A stretch of 45,465 bases of DNA from Chitinophagaceae bacterium (GTDB taxonomy: Bacteria > Bacteroidota > Bacteroidia > Chitinophagales > Chitinophagaceae). Where the stretch lies: NCBI GenBank assembly GCA_947448685.1, contig CANFOP010000006.1:1-45465 (forward strand), written 5' to 3'. Positions 28,816 through 43,023 of the stretch are shown here, piece by piece. The stretch's first letter is position 1, and every line of letters begins with the position of its first letter. Position numbers and translations under genes: made by a program. A model generated the notes under the pieces. It did no database searches and was not told the DNA's origin. It saw nothing but the letters and a program-made list of their open reading frames with translations.

Positions 28816-29817
28816 ATGAGCAACACAGAAAAATTAAAAGCGTTAAAGCTTACCATGGAAAAAATTGACAAGGACTTTGGTAAAGGTTCTGTCATGATGA
28901 TGAACGAAAAAACTCAAACAGAACAAGAGGTGATCTCTACCGGTTCAATTGGATTAGATGTTGCTCTGGGAATAGGCGGTCTGCCTAAAGGACGTATTGT
29001 TGAAATATACGGTCCGGAATCTTCCGGTAAAACAACTTTAGCCACACATGTAATTGCAGAAGCTCAAAAAAAAGGTGGTATGTGTGCATTTATAGATGCT
29101 GAACATGCATTTGATAGTACATATGCGCAAAAGTTAGGTGTAGATATAGATAGTTTATTGATTTCTCAGCCTGACTACGGTGAACAGGCTTTGGAAATTG
29201 CAGACAGATTGATTCTTTCTGGAGCGTTGGATGTAGTAGTCATTGATTCAGTGGCAGCGTTGGTACCCAAAGGAGAGTTGGAAGGTGAAATGGGCGATAG
29301 CAAAATGGGACTACATGCAAGATTGATGAGCCAGGCATTGAGAAAATTGACTGCCACTATTTCAAAAACAAATAGCTGCTGCATTTTTATCAATCAGTTA
29401 AGGGAAAAAATAGGTGTAATGTTTGGCAATCCAGAAACAACAACCGGAGGTAACGCATTGAAGTTTTATGCTTCAGTTCGATTAGATATTCGCAGAATGA
29501 CACAAATTAAAGACGGAGACGAAATTATTGGAAATCACATTAAAGTAAAAGTCGTTAAAAATAAAGTGGCGCCACCATTCCGTCAGGCCGAATTCGATAT
29601 TATTTATGGGGAAGGTATTTCAAAGGTTGGAGAAATTATTGACATGGGTGTAGAGTTGGGAATTGTACAAAAAAGCGGTAGTTGGTTCAGTTACAATAGC
29701 GATAAAATGGGACAAGGAAGAGAATCGGTAAAACAACTCTTAATTGATAACCCTGAAATGGCAAATGAGATAGAAGCAAAAATCAGAGAAAAAATTAAAG
29801 AAATGCAAGCACAATAA
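28816..29817 (+). CDS. recA: Recombinase A
   Basis: 333 aa ATP-dependent strand-exchange protein. Walker A GPESSGKT at 66-73, Walker B in [10 protein letters not shown], loop L1/L2 regions including [22 protein letters not shown] (named by its ends EGEMGD and SQALRK) and [28 protein letters not shown] (FINQLR to NALKFY). The C-terminal acidic tail is short ([12 protein letters not shown]), as in other Bacteroidota. Monocistronic by position, with a terminator about 180 bp downstream. Confidence 0.99.
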
Positions 29818-36982: not shown

Positions 36983-37017
36983 CCTCCAATAAATGGAGGT
37001 TTTATTATTTATTTTTA
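36983..37017 (+). promoter_or_regulatory. Palindrome-promoter 1 (ahead of the 75-aa ORF and the WYL gene)
   Basis: CCTCCAATAAATGGAGG (36983-36999) is followed after exactly 10 nt by TATTTTTA (37010-37017), close to TAnnTTTG. The start codon follows 13 nt later. The same arrangement precedes 39003 and 42097. For this copy alone, a U-rich 3' side means it might also act as a terminator for the AlkD-like gene. Confidence 0.6.
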
Positions 37018-37030
37018 TAAAAACTTTTTT

Positions 37031-37258
37031 ATGTATTGCAATATTGAAGAAAAAAAAGAAAATGAATTAATGAAATTATCCTTTTATCAAAACACATGCG
37101 AAAGGGCCCTGAATGAGCTTGCGCTCAATCACCCAAATCAATTGACTGAATTCGAAAAAGAGAAAATATACTTGATGTTAAAACGTCTCTTCAACAGTGA
37201 GGTGGATTACCTAATATCATCTCCGGAAAATTATTTTGCCCTTTATGAAGATGAATAG
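37031..37258 (+). CDS. Small protein of unknown function
   Basis: 75 aa, charged and mostly helical by eye, ending in an acidic tail (YLISSPENYFALYEDE). No membrane segment, no Cys cluster and no family I recognise. An alternative start at 37070 would give 62 aa; the upstream start fits the promoter position better. It is 60 bp ahead of the WYL regulator and may be co-transcribed with it. Its size and pairing would fit an antitoxin or a small modulator, but nothing in the sequence proves that. Confidence 0.55.
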   Translation: MYCNIEEKKENELMKLSFYQNTCERALNELALNHPNQLTEFEKEKIYLMLKRLFNSEVDYLISSPENYFALYEDE

Positions 37259-37318
37259 ATTCGCTGTGACAGGTTTAAATTTATATTCATATTTGTTGCT
37301 TTTCAATAATTTTACGCT

Positions 37319-38323
37319 ATGCCTAAAATAAAATCTGCTATAACCCGATATCAAATCATTGATACTTGTTTGACCAATAAGCTGAAGCCCTTTCCATCAC
37401 TGGAAGATTTAGCAAGGGAATGCAGTTCAAGGGTCAGAGAAGGCATTTCAACTTCAACCATTGAAAAGGACATTCGTTATATGAAACAGAGCCATCCGAA
37501 TGGATATGATGCGCCCATTGAATACAGCAAAATAAATAAAGGTTACTTCTACGCAGAACAAGGATTTTCAATTGCCACACTGAGATTAAGTGATGAAGAA
37601 TGGGATGCATTGCGATACGCTGCAAATCTATTGCACCAATATTCACATGTATCTATCTTTAAGGACTTCAAACAAGCCATTGATAAAATAAATACCCGGT
37701 TTAATTTATTAATTGATTTGGAGGAAGAGAATTTTGAAAAATACATTCAGTTTGAGTTTGGCACAGCAACAACGGGTTACGACTGGATAGGTTTAATTTT
37801 ACCCGCATTGCAGAACAGATGGATATTGAAATTATCTTATGATAACATTTACAAAAAAGAAATTAAGGAATACACAATTTATCCTGCGCTGTTAAAAGAA
37901 CATAGAAATCGATGGTATTTAATCGGATGGGTAGAGGACAGAAGCGATTACCTGACTTTTTCATTAGACAGAATTCAATCCATCGAAACTATTCAAAAAA
38001 CCCAAAAACACCGTTTTGATTTCAATGCAGAACAATTTTTACAATATTCTGTTGGGATAATGGAAGAAAATAAAAAGCCTGAAAAAATCGTATTGAAAAT
38101 TCAAGAACCTTATAGCAAGTTAGTTCAACTTGAACCATTACATCATAGTCAAAAAACGATTAAGCAAACAAACAAGGATATCCAGATAGAAATATTATTA
38201 CAAATTAATCCCGAATTATGTAACAGAATATTATCCATGGGGCCATACTGCACTGTCATACAGCCCTCAACATTAAAGAAACAAATCAAAAACTTGTTGT
38301 TGACAACTTTAAATAATTATTAA
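37319..38323 (+). CDS. WYL-domain transcriptional regulator
   Basis: 334 aa. An N-terminal winged-helix DNA-binding part covers about residues 8-80 (YQIIDTCLTNK, STSTIEKDIRYMKQS). A WYL domain lies at about 155-225, with the NRWYLIGWVEDR segment near 197-208 and the following LDRIQSIE strand. A C-terminal WCX-like part follows (about 260-334). WYL proteins sense nucleic-acid or nucleotide ligands and often control phage-defence or DNA-damage genes (for example CapW, BrxR, PafBC). It lies 320 bp from one copy of a palindrome that recurs before two nearby operons, so it is the obvious candidate to bind it. Confidence 0.9.
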   Translation: MPKIKSAITRYQIIDTCLTNKLKPFPSLEDLARECSSRVREGISTSTIEKDIRYMKQSHPNGYDAPIEYSKINKGYFYAEQGFSIATLRLSDEEWDALRYAANLLHQYSHVSIFKDFKQAIDKINTRFNLLIDLEEENFEKYIQFEFGTATTGYDWIGLILPALQNRWILKLSYDNIYKKEIKEYTIYPALLKEHRNRWYLIGWVEDRSDYLTFSLDRIQSIETIQKTQKHRFDFNAEQFLQYSVGIMEENKKPEKIVLKIQEPYSKLVQLEPLHHSQKTIKQTNKDIQIEILLQINPELCNRILSMGPYCTVIQPSTLKKQIKNLLLTTLNNY

Positions 38324-38399
38324 AGAGGTAATTGGTTGTTAATAGAATATTACAAGCAGAATTTTAATTGTGTGTATCAGTGCAACATAGAATCACCAC

Positions 38400-38738
38400 T
38401 TAATACATCAGACTTTTTTTAGATGATTTTCTCCATCCCGCTTGACTTTCATAATCTACAAAGTATATTTTAAAATCCGCCTGATTTGCATAATCCACAA
38501 AAAATATTTTCTTTTTTGCCTGGTTTGCATATTCAGTAAAAAACCATTTACCGGCGTTGTCTGTTGCTTGATGTTGGTATTTTACCTTGAATACTTTTAA
38601 GTCTGCCTGACTCTCGTATTGAACAACATATACTTTAACATCGGCCTGATTTGCATAATCAACAGAAAATACTTTTTGAGCACGAAGACTTTGAATAGTT
38701 GTCACCAAAAATATAATGAGTACAAATTCGCGTTTCAT
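38400..38738 (-). CDS. Secreted beta-repeat protein (DUF6150-like)
   Basis: 112 aa with signal peptide MKREFVLIIFLVTTIQSLRAQ. The mature part is almost wholly a run of six short units of the pattern (Y or F)-x-V-x-Y-x-x-Q-A-x-x-K, with YANQADVK, YESQADLK, YQHQATDN, YANQAKKK and YANQADFK as cores. Such regularity suggests a small beta-sheet stack or solenoid. I recall a Bacteroidota family of this form (DUF6150), with no known function. It is divergent from the unit beginning at 39003. Confidence 0.72.
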   Translation of the reverse strand: MKREFVLIIFLVTTIQSLRAQKVFSVDYANQADVKVYVVQYESQADLKVFKVKYQHQATDNAGKWFFTEYANQAKKKIFFVDYANQADFKIYFVDYESQAGWRKSSKKSLMY

Positions 38739-38945
38739 AAATGAAGTTTACTTTTTGAAATTTATTCTTTGAAGGTATTCATTTTCTTGATCAATACTAT
38801 CCTCTCTGTCAATTTTTTAAAGCGGCGCCGATTGCCCCCAAAAATACAATCCTTTCTTCTTTATCAAAGCCAGGTATGGATATTATGCAAGATTATAATT
38901 CTTCCATAAGCACTGTACTTGCTTGTCAAATTTAATATTATTACT

Positions 38946-38980
38946 CCTCCAATAGTTGGAGGTTTGTATCGGCACTTTTG
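38946..38980 (+). promoter_or_regulatory. Palindrome-promoter 2 (ahead of the LamG-like/HEPN unit)
   Basis: CCTCCAATAGTTGGAGG (38946-38962; 7-bp arms, 3-nt centre) is followed after exactly 10 nt by CACTTTTG (38973-38980), one mismatch from TAnnTTTG. The chosen ATG is 22 nt further on. There is no TTTG at the -33 position, which is occupied by the palindrome. Confidence 0.65.
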
Positions 38981-39002
38981 TATCAGCATCAAACTTTACA
39001 AA

Positions 39003-39668
39003 ATGCAAATAATCACAGATTTATTTGAAATAGAATGCTGTCAAGCGATAATCACCGAAAACTTTTCAAACAATAAACAAAAATGGGAGGAGGTGGCCAA
39101 TGATTCAGAGCAGGCGAAAATCAAAGACGGTTATTATTGGATGAGCAACACCTCTGATACAAGATGGAATTACTACAAAATAAAAGCGCCATTTAAACAA
39201 AATCATGGTTTTATAATTGAAACATTTATTGAACTTGAAAACAGACAAGATGCTTTTGGTCACTTTGGATTGGTTTGGGGATTTGATAGTGAAAGAAAAC
39301 ACCTAAACCGATTTACTTTATCAGCAGACGGAAAACGTGCACTGATTTTGCATTTTGAAAGAAATCACTATTTAATGTTTCATCGGTTTCAAAATAGAAA
39401 ACTCCCACAATTTGACATGAAAAAGCCTATTCGTTTTTCAATAATCAAATTAGATGATTATTTCCATTTTTTAATTAATAAGCAAAAGGTATATATGGCA
39501 CATGAATCCGTTTTTTGCTCCGATGGCGCTTTTGTCGGGTATTATATTGAACCGCATTTATCGATGAAAAGTAATTTTTTTGAAATTAAAAAAATTAAAG
39601 CGCATAAAAAAGATGTTGTCACAGGTTTGGAACAATTAATGAATGTAACGACTCATGAAAAATTATAG
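39003..39668 (+). CDS. Beta-sandwich (LamG/DUF1080-like) protein of unknown function
   Basis: 221 aa from the ATG at 39003, chosen because it lies just after the palindrome-promoter; an in-frame start 84 bp upstream lies before it. No signal peptide. Segments such as ENFSNNKQKWEE, WNYYKIKAPFKQ, FIIETFIELEN, GHFGLVWGFD and KKPIRFSIIKLDDYFHFLINKQKV have the strand pattern of LamG-like domains that bind sugar or protein ligands. No catalytic motif was seen. It heads a three-gene unit with the 126-aa and HEPN genes. Confidence 0.65.
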   Translation: MQIITDLFEIECCQAIITENFSNNKQKWEEVANDSEQAKIKDGYYWMSNTSDTRWNYYKIKAPFKQNHGFIIETFIELENRQDAFGHFGLVWGFDSERKHLNRFTLSADGKRALILHFERNHYLMFHRFQNRKLPQFDMKKPIRFSIIKLDDYFHFLINKQKVYMAHESVFCSDGAFVGYYIEPHLSMKSNFFEIKKIKAHKKDVVTGLEQLMNVTTHEKL

Positions 39669-39754
39669 GAGTTTCATAACGATACTGTTACACCCTAATC
39701 AGTCAAGGATTTGTTAGAATAGTACATAAAAAAACATGATCAATCAGTAATAGA

Positions 39755-40135
39755 ATGTTTAGAAAAACTACCCGCTCATTAAGTCTTAGTAAAGATTCGC
39801 CCAAAATTATACTTACAACTGATACGGGTTTTTTAAAAATAAACATGCTGCAAGTAATTGGTAATAAAATAAACAAATTCGGTCGGCCTTTGGGAATTCG
39901 GTGGACGCTGCTTTGTGAGAACAATCAGTATGACTGCTTCTGTTGGCAATTTCCCAATCAGTTTGAATTTAACTGTTTTGAATTAATACATGTATTTGGA
40001 TTTATGGAAACCGAATTTACTAAAAACGCCAGCATAAGCCAATCAAGTGAATTGCATATAAAAATAGAAACTGAAGCGGTTGAAAAAAATCTGATCATTG
40101 ATATTAAACTGGAGGTTGATGAAAAGGTAATATAA
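39755..40135 (+). CDS. Protein of unknown function, 126 aa
   Basis: Soluble, with a basic N-terminus (MFRKTTRSLSLSKDS) and mostly alternating hydrophobic strands after that. It includes a Cys/Trp/aromatic-rich segment (NNQYDCFCWQFPNQFEFNCF, about 56-75). No family is recognised. It lies 86 bp after the LamG-like gene and 53 bp before the HEPN gene on the same strand. An overlapping minus-strand ORF in this place has no support. Confidence 0.55.
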   Translation: MFRKTTRSLSLSKDSPKIILTTDTGFLKINMLQVIGNKINKFGRPLGIRWTLLCENNQYDCFCWQFPNQFEFNCFELIHVFGFMETEFTKNASISQSSELHIKIETEAVEKNLIIDIKLEVDEKVI

Positions 40136-40188
40136 TAGAGAGTTGCTTATTTTTAATTAAATTACATTTTTTATATAACGATTCTCAT

Positions 40189-40830
40189 ATGTCATCTTCC
40201 GATTTAAAAAGAAAACTCAAATTATATAAAGATATTCCCGAATCATTAGCTGTTCGTTTACACCGCGCTATCAGTTGGTTGAAGTGCGCAGAAGAAAACA
40301 GCAACAACCATGATATTCGATTTTTGTCATTATGGATTTCGTATAACGCTTGTTATGCCATTGATGAAAAATCAGAAAGTGATTTGACAGAGAGAAAACA
40401 ATTCAACGATTTTATTGCTAAACTGGTATGTCATGACCATGAGAAGCGTTTTTTTAACCTATTGTGGAACAAATTTTCAGGGCCCGTTCGACTTATCATA
40501 GAAAACCAATATATTTTTAAGCCCTTCTGGGATGCTCAACGAGGAGAAAACACCCATTGGAAAAAATTGTTTGAGCAATCAAATAAAGATGCGAATCGTT
40601 ACCTCTCTAAAAATGAAGTTGCCAAATTAATAGAGGTCGTTTTGGATAGGCTGTATATGTTGCGGAACCAGCTTATGCATGGTGGCGCTACCTACAAAAG
40701 CAAGGTTAATCGTATACAGGTAAAAGATGCCTGCAATATTCTTACGCTTTTTATCCCAATCATTATTGATATTATGATGGAAAACAGAAAGGAAGAGTGG
40801 GGCGATATTTACTATCCGGTAGTATTATAG
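40189..40830 (+). CDS. HEPN-domain protein (Apea-like), possible RNase
   Basis: 213 aa, all-helical. The HEPN signature R-N-x3-H is at 159-164 (RNQLMHGG) in the helix LDRLYMLRNQLMHGG, and an upstream LSLWISYNACYAIDE helix (about 46-60) is typical of Apea/HEPN proteins. An intact RxxxxH centre is the hallmark of HEPN RNases used in toxin, abortive-infection and CRISPR effectors. It is the third gene of a unit behind palindrome-promoter 2, and faces the convergent SHOCT-protein unit. RNase activity and a defence role are predictions. Confidence 0.75.
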   Translation: MSSSDLKRKLKLYKDIPESLAVRLHRAISWLKCAEENSNNHDIRFLSLWISYNACYAIDEKSESDLTERKQFNDFIAKLVCHDHEKRFFNLLWNKFSGPVRLIIENQYIFKPFWDAQRGENTHWKKLFEQSNKDANRYLSKNEVAKLIEVVLDRLYMLRNQLMHGGATYKSKVNRIQVKDACNILTLFIPIIIDIMMENRKEEWGDIYYPVVL

Positions 40831-40831
40831 A

Positions 40832-41260
40832 TTATTCTTTGCCAATGATCTCATTCAAGTTGTCTAAAAACAATTTCATTTCTGCTAATTTTTTATCTTC
40901 ATCCGATTGATTTTTTTCGGGACCATAACATTCAGAAATATCAAAATAAAATGTTTCAACACCTCTTATCATTTGACCATTTTCATTAGAAATGATTTTC
41001 ACATCTATTTTATCAAAAGTTTTGCCATTTTGAAATAATAGTTGTTGTTTTAAAATATCGCATGAATGGTAGCACCTTCCTAATGCAATATATCTCAATA
41101 CATGATATTCAATAGAAACATAATCATTGATTGGGTTTGTCCGTTCAATGATTATAGCATTTTCCATTGAGTTTCCCATGCCCCCGCGGATAGGAAGATT
41201 GTCTCCAAAAACATCTTGAATGATATCTTTAACAGATGTAAAGGTGAATTTGTTTTTCAT
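40832..41260 (-). CDS. Protein of unknown function, 142 aa
   Basis: Soluble, acidic C-terminus (EKNQSDEDKKLAEMKLFLDNLNEIIGKE, named by its ends). Includes two close Cys in GRCYHSCDILKQQL near residues 63-67 and a further Cys in the ISECYGPEK segment. No family recognised. It is 12 bp after the SHOCT-containing gene, so the two are almost certainly one operon. Its stop codon is 1 bp from that of the convergent HEPN gene. Confidence 0.55.
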   Translation of the reverse strand: MKNKFTFTSVKDIIQDVFGDNLPIRGGMGNSMENAIIIERTNPINDYVSIEYHVLRYIALGRCYHSCDILKQQLLFQNGKTFDKIDVKIISNENGQMIRGVETFYFDISECYGPEKNQSDEDKKLAEMKLFLDNLNEIIGKE

Positions 41261-41272
41261 GAGTTTTAATTT

Positions 41273-42097
41273 TTAAACAGCTTGTAATATTTCGTTTTTC
41301 TTTACCTGAAATTCCTTTTTTGAAATCAGTTTCTTTTCAAACATTTCAGCCAATGTAGCCAATCTGTTGATTAACGATTTGTCGGATTGTTGATATTTTG
41401 TTTTATACACTTCTTTATCTTGCTCTGACAACAATTCAATTTCAAAAATGATATAATCATCGTAGTGTACCCTGCAACAAACAATCTTTCCGTCTAAAGA
41501 AATATCCCATCCAATGCAGGCGCCCCAATTCATCACTTCATTTGCCACCCAGCCAACCTTTCCATGTCTTGGTTTATAGGGCATGTCTTTATACATCCCT
41601 CGTTTTATCTCTTTTAAATGAACACCATGATTGATTTCAAGATCACCCGTAAATAAATAATTTAGCGTTGGCATTTGTATGACCAGTTTTTCTGTAAGTA
41701 CATTTAATGCCTCTTCTCTTTTACTTTTTTCGTTTTCTTTCGCAGTTCTTTTTTCAATAAAATTATTTATCTCTTCTCTGTTAAGTTGCTCAATTGTATA
41801 AAAATAAAATTCGTTAATGCTTTTGAAGTACATAATTTCGGAACCGTCATTTTTTACATCCCAATAAGGATGATTTTGAAATTCTACCATTCCGATATTA
41901 TAGGTTATATTTTCGTCGCTAAGCCATTCGGCTTTATCGTTTCGATAGTGCCAACCCTTTAGTTGGTTGGGGTCTTCTATTGGAATAATTCGAATTCCAT
42001 GGTTAATCCCAAGTTCTTCGTCATCCAGCATGGGTGTTCCATAGGATTGCTTGATAAAAATGTTGAATAATTTTTCAACCAAGGGGTTTGATTCCAT
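41273..42097 (-). CDS. SHOCT-tailed protein with an internal duplication, unknown function
   Basis: 274 aa, soluble. The C-terminal 33 residues (SLINRLATLAEMFEKKLIS, then KKEFQVKKNEIL) are a SHOCT helical hairpin, a short oligomerisation-type tail found on many envelope and accessory proteins. The two halves look related: INHGIRIIPIEDPNQLKG (near 31-48) and INHGVHLKEIKRGMYKD (near 154-170), each followed by a Trp-bearing strand. A coiled Lys/Glu-rich helix (about 105-135) separates them. It starts 13 nt after palindrome-promoter 3. No known function. Confidence 0.6.
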   Translation of the reverse strand: MESNPLVEKLFNIFIKQSYGTPMLDDEELGINHGIRIIPIEDPNQLKGWHYRNDKAEWLSDENITYNIGMVEFQNHPYWDVKNDGSEIMYFKSINEFYFYTIEQLNREEINNFIEKRTAKENEKSKREEALNVLTEKLVIQMPTLNYLFTGDLEINHGVHLKEIKRGMYKDMPYKPRHGKVGWVANEVMNWGACIGWDISLDGKIVCCRVHYDDYIIFEIELLSEQDKEVYKTKYQQSDKSLINRLATLAEMFEKKLISKKEFQVKKNEILQAV

Positions 42098-42109
42098 GCG
42101 TTTTTTAGT

Positions 42110-42144
42110 TAAAGGTATTAGACAAGACCTCCAACTATTGGAGG
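42110..42144 (-). promoter_or_regulatory. Palindrome-promoter 3 (ahead of the SHOCT-protein operon)
   Basis: On the minus strand CCTCCAATAGTTGGAGG (42144-42128), identical to copy 2, is followed after exactly 10 nt by TACCTTTA (42117-42110). The ATG is 12 nt further on. Copies 1 to 3 are 2.0 and 3.2 kb apart and are on both strands. Confidence 0.65.
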
Positions 42145-42431: not shown

Positions 42432-43023
42432 ATGCAAAAAGTAACATTTGACCATGCTTCTGAAAATAAATTTTCTAAAACAGTTGCCTATAGAATAGCC
42501 GACTATTTTACAGAAAAAAATATTTCAAGAAAAGCGAATTGGATTTTTGGTTTAAAAGTCATTTTATTCTTTTTCTTCACGGTTGGTTTGTATGTGGCAA
42601 TTATGACTTCCGAACATTATAATATACCATTGGCATTACTGTTTATTTTATTTGGATTATTCATTACAATGCTTGTTTTTTCTGTAGCACAAGATGCCTC
42701 CCACCATGCCATTTCAGACATAAAATGGGTGAATTAATTACTGCAATATGTTTGGGACATGGCTGGCATTTCCTCTTATTGTTGGAAATTGAAACACAAT
42801 CTATCACATCATAGTTTTACAAACATTCCAGGGAAAGATGGCGATATCGACCAAAGTAAACTGGTTATTCTACATCCTCACTCTCCAAAAATGTGGTTTC
42901 ATCGATACCAGCACCTTTATGAGAGGAAGTACTGGTGTTAGTTTTAAATTATTTTCATTGATATTTTTTTTTGCGACTTTTTTTATTTATTATTTGATTG
43001 ACTCAACACCGGTGCGGTCATAA
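42432..43023 (+). pseudogene. Decayed fatty-acid desaturase
   Basis: The N-terminal two-fifths of a membrane fatty-acid desaturase of the DesA/linoleoyl-CoA type. Residues 1-101 end at a TAA (42735-42737). The same frame continues as LLQYVWDMAGISSYCWKLK and HNLSHHSFTN, the second histidine box, to a stop at 42939-42941, so the first stop is an in-frame nonsense change. The first histidine box reads QDASHH where family members have HDASHH. A +1 shift near 42920 restores family-like residues (VLVLVLNYFH) before further stops. The third histidine box and C-terminus are missing. The right boundary is approximate. Confidence 0.82.

Follow-up and report, generated by a model that had tools for sequence, protein, structure and literature searches.

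Three palindromes in front of genes in the window

We analysed a stretch of 45,465 nucleotides (nt), called the window throughout, at positions 1 to 45,465 of contig CANFOP010000006.1 from a Chitinophagaceae bacterium (assembly GCA_947448685.1). A palindrome of 17 base pairs (bp) occurs in it three times in front of genes, once before the operon of a WYL regulator. A sequence-only reading had placed a -7-like promoter box 10 nt past each palindrome and a start codon shortly after the box. All three palindromes, boxes and ATGs were found where that reading had put them, and the 10-nt spacing was exact. Loci and genomes are cited below by L and G numbers, and lengths of proteins are in amino acids (aa).

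36983..36999, + strand: candidate operator 1, CCTCCAATAAATGGAGG, preceding a 75-aa open reading frame (ORF) and the WYL gene
37010..37017, + strand: -7-like box TATTTTTA, 10 nt past operator 1
37319..38323, + strand: WYL regulator with a winged helix-turn-helix (wHTH), a helical linker, a WYL domain (PF13280) and a WCX domain (PF25583), from Pfam, model and Protein Data Bank (PDB) matches
38946..38962, + strand: candidate operator 2, CCTCCAATAGTTGGAGG, preceding the jelly-roll gene at 39003..39668
38973..38980, + strand: -7-like box CACTTTTG, 10 nt past operator 2
42110..42117, - strand (read 42117-42110): -7-like box TACCTTTA, 10 nt past operator 3
42128..42144, - strand: candidate operator 3, CCTCCAATAGTTGGAGG, preceding the gene of a 274-aa protein (family F7)

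The ATGs at 37031, 39003 and 42097 lie 13, 22 and 12 nt past their respective boxes. The positions recurred in other loci. For operator 1, a site was found in the corresponding position ahead of the 75-aa ORF homologs of L090, L091, L092, L094, L095 and L096; for operator 2, ahead of the ortholog in L089; and for operator 3, ahead of the homolog in L094 (20264, minus strand). Directly upstream of operator 1 lies a gene for a DNA alkylation repair enzyme (PF08713, 36198-36911), and recA (28816-29817) lies about 8 kb upstream of the operator; no site precedes either gene.

With up to two mismatches, the palindrome had six matches on both strands of the window, compared with a mean of 0.19 in shuffled sequence, and none of 100 shuffles reached six. 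The whole genome of origin comprises 2.09 Mb on 181 contigs, and as it is 82% complete, other sites may have been missed. Copies with no more than one mismatch were confined in it to the three window places, all within 5.2 kb. Exactly two mismatches gave 12 more places, all on other contigs, and the reversed control gave 2. Many random copies with variable spacing were not seen. Among 248 genomes of the order, the exact palindrome was present as a single copy in each of four other genomes. Two of these copies were inside ORFs (L012 and L014), one was a terminator-like hairpin between convergent genes (L011), and one was outside the listed ORFs and otherwise showed no resemblance (L013). The contexts of the four copies look unrelated.

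Spacing and direction of the element across WYL loci

A WYL-alignment scan of 84,980 genomes gave 26 loci, and the site analysis was performed on 28 loci, namely these 26, the window and L047. Four loci (L089, L103, L108 and L109) repeat genomes G213, G446, G343 and G278, and each was used once. A weight matrix with a threshold of at least 12 bits gave 63 candidate palindromes. Five were dropped by eye as chance (L089 280, L094 8885, L095 657, L105 20586 and L112 8296), and the 58 curated sites lay in 23 of the 28 loci with 1-5 sites per locus. Most of the genomes were metagenome-assembled genomes (MAGs) with short contigs, and close MAGs inflated the counts. The strand was set by the upstream half-site alone, which oriented 56 of the 58 sites, and this orientation agreed with that given by box and gene in 53 of the 56. 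Since the 58 sites included near-copies from close MAGs, identical sequences were removed, and 50 of the 56 oriented sites remained.

The element is a pseudo-palindrome. Its upstream half, ACTCCTC(C/A)AATA, was more conserved than the downstream half, which ended in GnGG, and in many loci the right half was not symmetric. All of the 50 sites shared CCTC at positions 1-4 and G at position 16, partly as a result of how the sites were found. A TAnnTTTG-like box (at least 5 of 6 matches) was located at +10 in 37 sites and at +11 in 12 others, so that 49 of the 56 sites had it at one of the two distances. Any other offset from 0 to 44 gave the box in at most 5 of the 56 sites, and on the opposite side of the palindrome it was found at +10 or +11 in 10 of 56. 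When no candidate was dropped, the box was 10-11 nt away in 50 of the 60 orientable sites among the 63. An ORF of at least 45 codons started 20-60 nt downstream in 44 of the 50 sites, compared with 13 of 50 on the other side. The -33 element, already described as missing in the window, was absent more widely: of the 50 sites, 3 had a TTG in the interval 17-23 nt ahead of the box and 47 had none. The reversed pattern had no match in the 26 fetched loci. The box spacing, the downstream ORF starts and the missing TTG indicated that the element is a directional promoter element occupying the -33 place.

The palindromes could also be hairpins (intrinsic terminators or REP-like repeats) or the product of chance. 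Site 1 would suit a terminator, as it lies 71 nt past the stop codon of the alkylation-repair gene and T-rich DNA comes after it. However, such surroundings were seen at site 1 alone; the genes on either side of sites 2 and 3 are divergent, and a terminator would have no use there. The half that is conserved faces the gene and keeps a set distance from the promoter box, which ruled out an intrinsic terminator, and the asymmetric right half does not fit a hairpin. Three copies per genome do not amount to a repeat family, and REP and MITE repeats were rejected for this reason. Chance was ruled out by the window shuffles, the control in the own genome, the scan of the order and the reversed pattern. 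The earlier argument that conserved spacing speaks against chance or a plain terminator was thus upheld by the shuffles and by the 10-11 nt offset, and we regard hairpins or chance as extremely improbable.

Link between the element and the WYL gene

The sites were close to WYL genes: 48 of the 58 lay within 2 kb of one, where 32% of the fetched DNA lies. Only the genome-wide pattern searches were independent of WYL. A WYL homolog at E 1e-30 or better was present in 94 of 294 genomes of the family, and a WYL ortholog at least 44% identical was present in six, the own genome included (G000, G213, G446, G343, G278 and G345, the last cut by a contig end). Each of the six carriers had one or more perfect matches to ACTCCTCCAATAG-N3-GNGG; of the window sites, one matched it exactly and the others had 1 and 3 mismatches. 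The site precedes the ortholog of the window gene at 39003 in G213 and a gene followed by WYL in G345. G446 had one more exact site on another contig, without a long ORF directly after it.

A combined pattern of the site, 9-11 nt and TAnnTTT was found in 4 of the 294 family genomes, all four among the six close-ortholog carriers, and the reversed control gave 0. It missed two carriers because their boxes depart from TAnnTTT. None of the 288 family genomes without a close WYL ortholog had the pattern, and they gave no case of sites persisting where the WYL gene was lost. The association with the close ortholog (Fisher 4.9e-8) and the four matches are circular in part, since these loci were the source of the pattern; the absences are not circular. 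Among 395 genomes from across the phylum, some of them shared with the family set, the pattern was present in the own genome only. With 3 mismatches to ACTCCTCCAATAG-N3-GNGG allowed, the own genome gave 13 matches and its reversed control 3.

In the tree, 22 site-bearing WYL rows fell into one supported clade of 26, together with four that lacked a local site. The sites tracked the WYL gene in the genome-wide search, and these four loci (L097, L099, L100 and L111) are a partial exception. The WYL genes of L099, L100 and L111 lie in a different gene neighbourhood common to all three, and recA is next to WYL in both contigs that extend far enough. These genes (L099 1680-2687, L100 1283-2290 and L111 4808-5394) are WYL paralogs, 66-69% identical to the window WYL, with no operator nearby. 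The paralog is divergent from an apparent substrate-binding-protein/permease pair, and in L099 and L100 it lies 154 nt before recA. The MAGs of L099 and L100 also carry a site-bearing WYL (L091 and L090, respectively).

Another regulator might read the palindrome, with the WYL gene merely a frequent neighbour. The four same-clade WYL genes without a local site and the use of WYL as bait for the loci are compatible with this. However, the pattern was absent from the 288 genomes without a close ortholog, the sites cluster within 2 kb of WYL, and another WYL clade has another palindrome in the same geometry, as described below. The site columns also matched neither of the Bacteroidetes LexA-like motifs given in an excerpt of PMC8565304, CTAA-N5-TTAG and GGA-N5-TCC, and a LexA-like SOS operator was rejected. 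We consider another reader quite improbable. A search for the LexA domain gave a match in 2 of 6 genomes, 1 of them above the cut-off, and the control gave matches in 10 of 14.

A phage-borne element and spread by plasmids were also rejected. Viral contigs had no WYL relative, and two pattern matches among them were both inside coding frames of unrelated contigs. A WYL homolog was present in 14 plasmid records, with 33% identity as the best among the 10 of 14 listed.

The WYL regulator and known systems

The WYL domain of the regulator was above the cut-off for PF13280 (E 4.1e-13), and the WCX domain was just under that for PF25583 (22.6 bits vs 23.9). With the structure model and the PDB matches, wHTH, WYL and WCX domains were all recognised. 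The best Foldseek match in PDB for the predicted structure was DriD 8tp8 (E 4e-13, TM 0.53). DriD complexes with RNA polymerase (RNAP) and PafBC 9fnd were also top matches of the model, above CapW and BrxR. The sequence profile reached PafBC and DriD via WYL and WCX, and BrxR and CapW over the WYL domain alone. PADLOC matched its WYL and Cas3c models to the regulator.

The comparisons here draw on excerpts of the cited papers. DriD, a homodimeric WYL activator of Caulobacter crescentus, has the same order of wHTH, helical linker, WYL and WCX. Its pseudo-palindromic sites extend over -35 and keep a constant spacing to -10, at promoters with a poor -35, one of them divergent (PMC12340889). Likewise, as placed by the Flavobacterium psychrophilum numbering given below, the element here lies over the -35/-33 region at a fixed distance from the -10/-7 box, and a -35 consensus is lacking. 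In contrast to the present element, the DriD operator consensus is ATACGAC-N7-GTCGTAT. Our system also differs in its Bacteroidota -7 box, in having A, G or S in place of the first sensing arginine, and in targets that are mostly beside the regulator gene and mostly without assigned function. PafBC, a mycobacterial WYL activator acting by sigma adaptation, recognises a motif near -26 and is positioned between the DNA and sigma domain 4, replacing the -35 contact (PMC11804915). PafBC works as a heterodimer and has a large DNA-damage regulon, whereas here there is usually one WYL gene and few sites per locus. SiwR, another mycobacterial WYL activator, needs the -26 region with a conserved GGA, within a 19-bp imperfect palindrome between -10 and -35, and controls adjacent genes (PMC10693628). 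It differs in its DinB-like cargo, its phylum and its palindrome, and it needs both of its sensing arginines, R204 and R207.

Proposed mechanism

In our proposal, the palindrome would be the operator of the WYL protein encoded at 37319-38323, bound by a WYL homodimer over a pseudo-palindrome of about 17 bp. The TAnnTTTG box of Flavobacterium psychrophilum spans -12 to -5 (excerpt of PMC9723704). Numbered in this way, the window sites would span about -39 to -23, with their GGA at about -27 to -25. The WYL protein would take the place of the missing -33 element and anchor the housekeeping RNAP, whose own contact would be the TAnnTTTG box. As an activator, like DriD and PafBC, it would control its own operon and a changing set of nearby accessory genes.

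We committed to a WYL activator that replaces the -33 contact because the geometry is like that of PafBC, SiwR and DriD. As judged from sequence, a small island regulon with such an activator at housekeeping promoters, its own operon included, is moderately probable. What the data show directly is the element itself, with its spacing, its direction, its place ahead of genes and its association with the WYL clade. It is very likely that the WYL protein reads the palindrome, and likely that its effect is activation and not repression. The signal could be DNA damage or some other nucleic-acid stress, a suggestion that we rate close to balanced and slightly to the doubtful side.

Several observations weighed against this proposal. 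Local co-occurrence of WYL and site is partly built in because the 28 loci were fetched by WYL, and the four loci without a local site belong to the same WYL clade. Three of the 58 sites had no ORF of 45 codons after them, and the GGA triplet was present at its columns in only 25 of 50 sites. Five kept sites scored 12-17 bits, three of which (12.4-14.0) were inside the reversed-sequence background of up to 14.1. At 3 mismatches to ACTCCTCCAATAG-N3-GNGG, the five other carriers gave 79 matches (forward and reverse) vs 121 in the reversed control; the matches in the six genomes were not above the control in total, so only low-mismatch sites are meaningful. The WYL model was of moderate quality (pTM 0.47), with parts of residues 87-151 below pLDDT 50. 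Finally, the R-x-x-R pair that senses single-stranded DNA (ssDNA) was half missing: position 215 was A, G or S and R218 was kept in 24 of 24 aligned proteins, in columns aligned to PafB and DriD. In the excerpts on PafBC and SiwR, ssDNA sensing needs both arginines. The protein would work like DriD, but as one of the two is absent, we did not file it as an ssDNA-sensing member.

The WYL regulators BrxR and CapW repress. A repressor of this type would sit over -33 and block RNAP, and a signal would release it. In favour of this, the site covers DNA that the polymerase would occupy, it precedes the WYL operon itself in the window and several loci, and one cargo gene is HEPN-like by motif. However, a repressor needs a self-sufficient promoter, yet TTG was mostly lacking at the -33 place. 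This is weak evidence because Bacteroidota promoters can function without a clear -33. The structure and profile matches also placed the activators DriD and PafBC above BrxR and CapW. BrxR and CapW adjoin and regulate local accessory or defence operons (PMC9122589, PMC9122588), a likeness to the arrangement here, whereas their structural match was lower and their profile aligned over the WYL domain only. We consider a repressor unlikely and retain the activator as the preferred reading.

Genes behind the sites

The genes that follow the three window sites, apart from the WYL regulator, were as follows.

37031..37258, + strand: 75-aa ORF (family F4), in 9 of 28 loci, 7 with a site directly in front; predicted product without assigned function
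39003..39668, + strand: 221-aa jelly-roll protein (F2), in 12 of 28 loci, each of the 12 with a site in front
39755..40135, + strand: 126-aa protein (F20), in 2 loci
40189..40830, + strand: 213-aa HEPN-like protein with an RNQLMH motif; a homolog follows F2 in L095 too
40832..41260, - strand: 142-aa protein (F22), following F7
41273..42097, - strand: 274-aa protein (F7), in 5 of 28 loci, with a C-terminal SHOCT match below the cut-off

The sequence-only reading had asked whether sites lie before accessory genes, and they were found upstream of recurring families across the loci. The true start of the 75-aa ORF may be a later ATG. The model of the F2 protein (pLDDT 84) had a predicted galectin/concanavalin-like jelly roll fold. 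The F2, F20 and HEPN-like genes are probably on one transcript, in the case of F20 from its spacing and strand. A jelly-roll gene, then a small gene and then a HEPN-like gene were found both in the window (39003-40830) and in L095 (13451-15146), and a three-gene unit is possible. The HEPN assignment was retained in part: the RNxxxH motif was present in the translation, and the label rests on it, but the 213-aa protein had no HEPN match in Pfam. F7 and F22 are probably one operon because F22 follows F7 in L094 too.

Other recurring downstream families were F3 (136-158 aa, 10 loci) and F5 (118 aa, 8 loci), with singletons besides. An endonuclease-like pair with a match to PF10107 lay downstream of sites in 3 loci. 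Pfam, NCBIfam, PADLOC and PHROGs gave almost no information on the remaining target families; PADLOC had a weak MTase_II match on P0003, and the PHROGs matches were families without assigned function.

Further genes were noted around the WYL islands. A von Willebrand A-like gene group, recognised by eye, lies near the island in L095 (3287-5883), L104 (6671-8899) and L112 (4520-7135). A giant gene of about 2750 codons lies just upstream of the WYL operon in L090 (1205-9454), L092 (1145-9445) and L094 (1203-9452). In the window, two short frames at 42432-42941 resembled pieces of a broken fatty-acid desaturase gene, the second with a weak match to PF00487. The N-terminal part of a serine recombinase (PF00239) is present at the contig end (45212-45463), and given this piece, the island may border a mobile element.

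A second WYL clade and the meaning of the element

A strict scan for perfect-armed palindromes 9-12 nt before a box was performed on L020-L044, a set of 25 loci that includes L037 from the first clade. It found two loci, both with TACGTAA-N5-TTACGTA, and the same scan recovered two of the three window sites. When 19 loci (L026-L044) were searched for this second palindrome directly, six promoters had it, and two more weak matches were judged chance. The six (L031, L032, L034, L036, L041 and L043) had TACGTAA-N5-TTACG(T/C)A, which varied slightly and was followed 9-10 nt later by an AAnnTTTG-like box, and they lay next to WYL genes of another clade. If a WYL protein is the reader, a different clade would be expected to have a different palindrome at the same distance. 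However, all six promoters precede one gene family of about 195 aa, so ordinary promoter conservation could explain them, and the GTAA-N5-TTAC core resembles the LexA-like CTAA-N5-TTAG. The support for generality from the second palindrome was moderate. In the WYL upstream regions of a clade with 41% identity, read by eye, no element could be called.

From these data, we tentatively extend the proposal to Chitinophagaceae and perhaps Bacteroidota, as a possibility that we hold with some doubt. A family of WYL activators would replace the -33 contact at TAnnTTTG promoters, with one palindrome per clade at a fixed distance. It would drive islands of undescribed proteins and respond to a ligand other than plain ssDNA.

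To our knowledge, WYL proteins are abundant and few have a known operator. Among the matches listed, a search of the open-licence literature gave no experimental WYL regulon in Bacteroidota, and a literal text search for the palindrome gave none that concerned bacterial regulation by title. The palindromic WYL regulon is apparently undescribed so far, and the view of a small undescribed regulon linked to WYL gained support from the spacing, the position before accessory genes and the tracking of WYL. The operator, the promoter geometry and the list of target genes make the prediction directly testable. They offer a way into the regulation of at least five families that have no clear Pfam assignment (the 75-aa, 118-aa, 136-aa, jelly-roll and SHOCT-ended proteins) and of the endonuclease-like pair (PF10107). 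Replacing the -33/-35 contact is suggested as a shared habit of WYL activators across distant phyla. If the extended proposal is true, there would be a readable operator code for WYL regulators in Bacteroidota.

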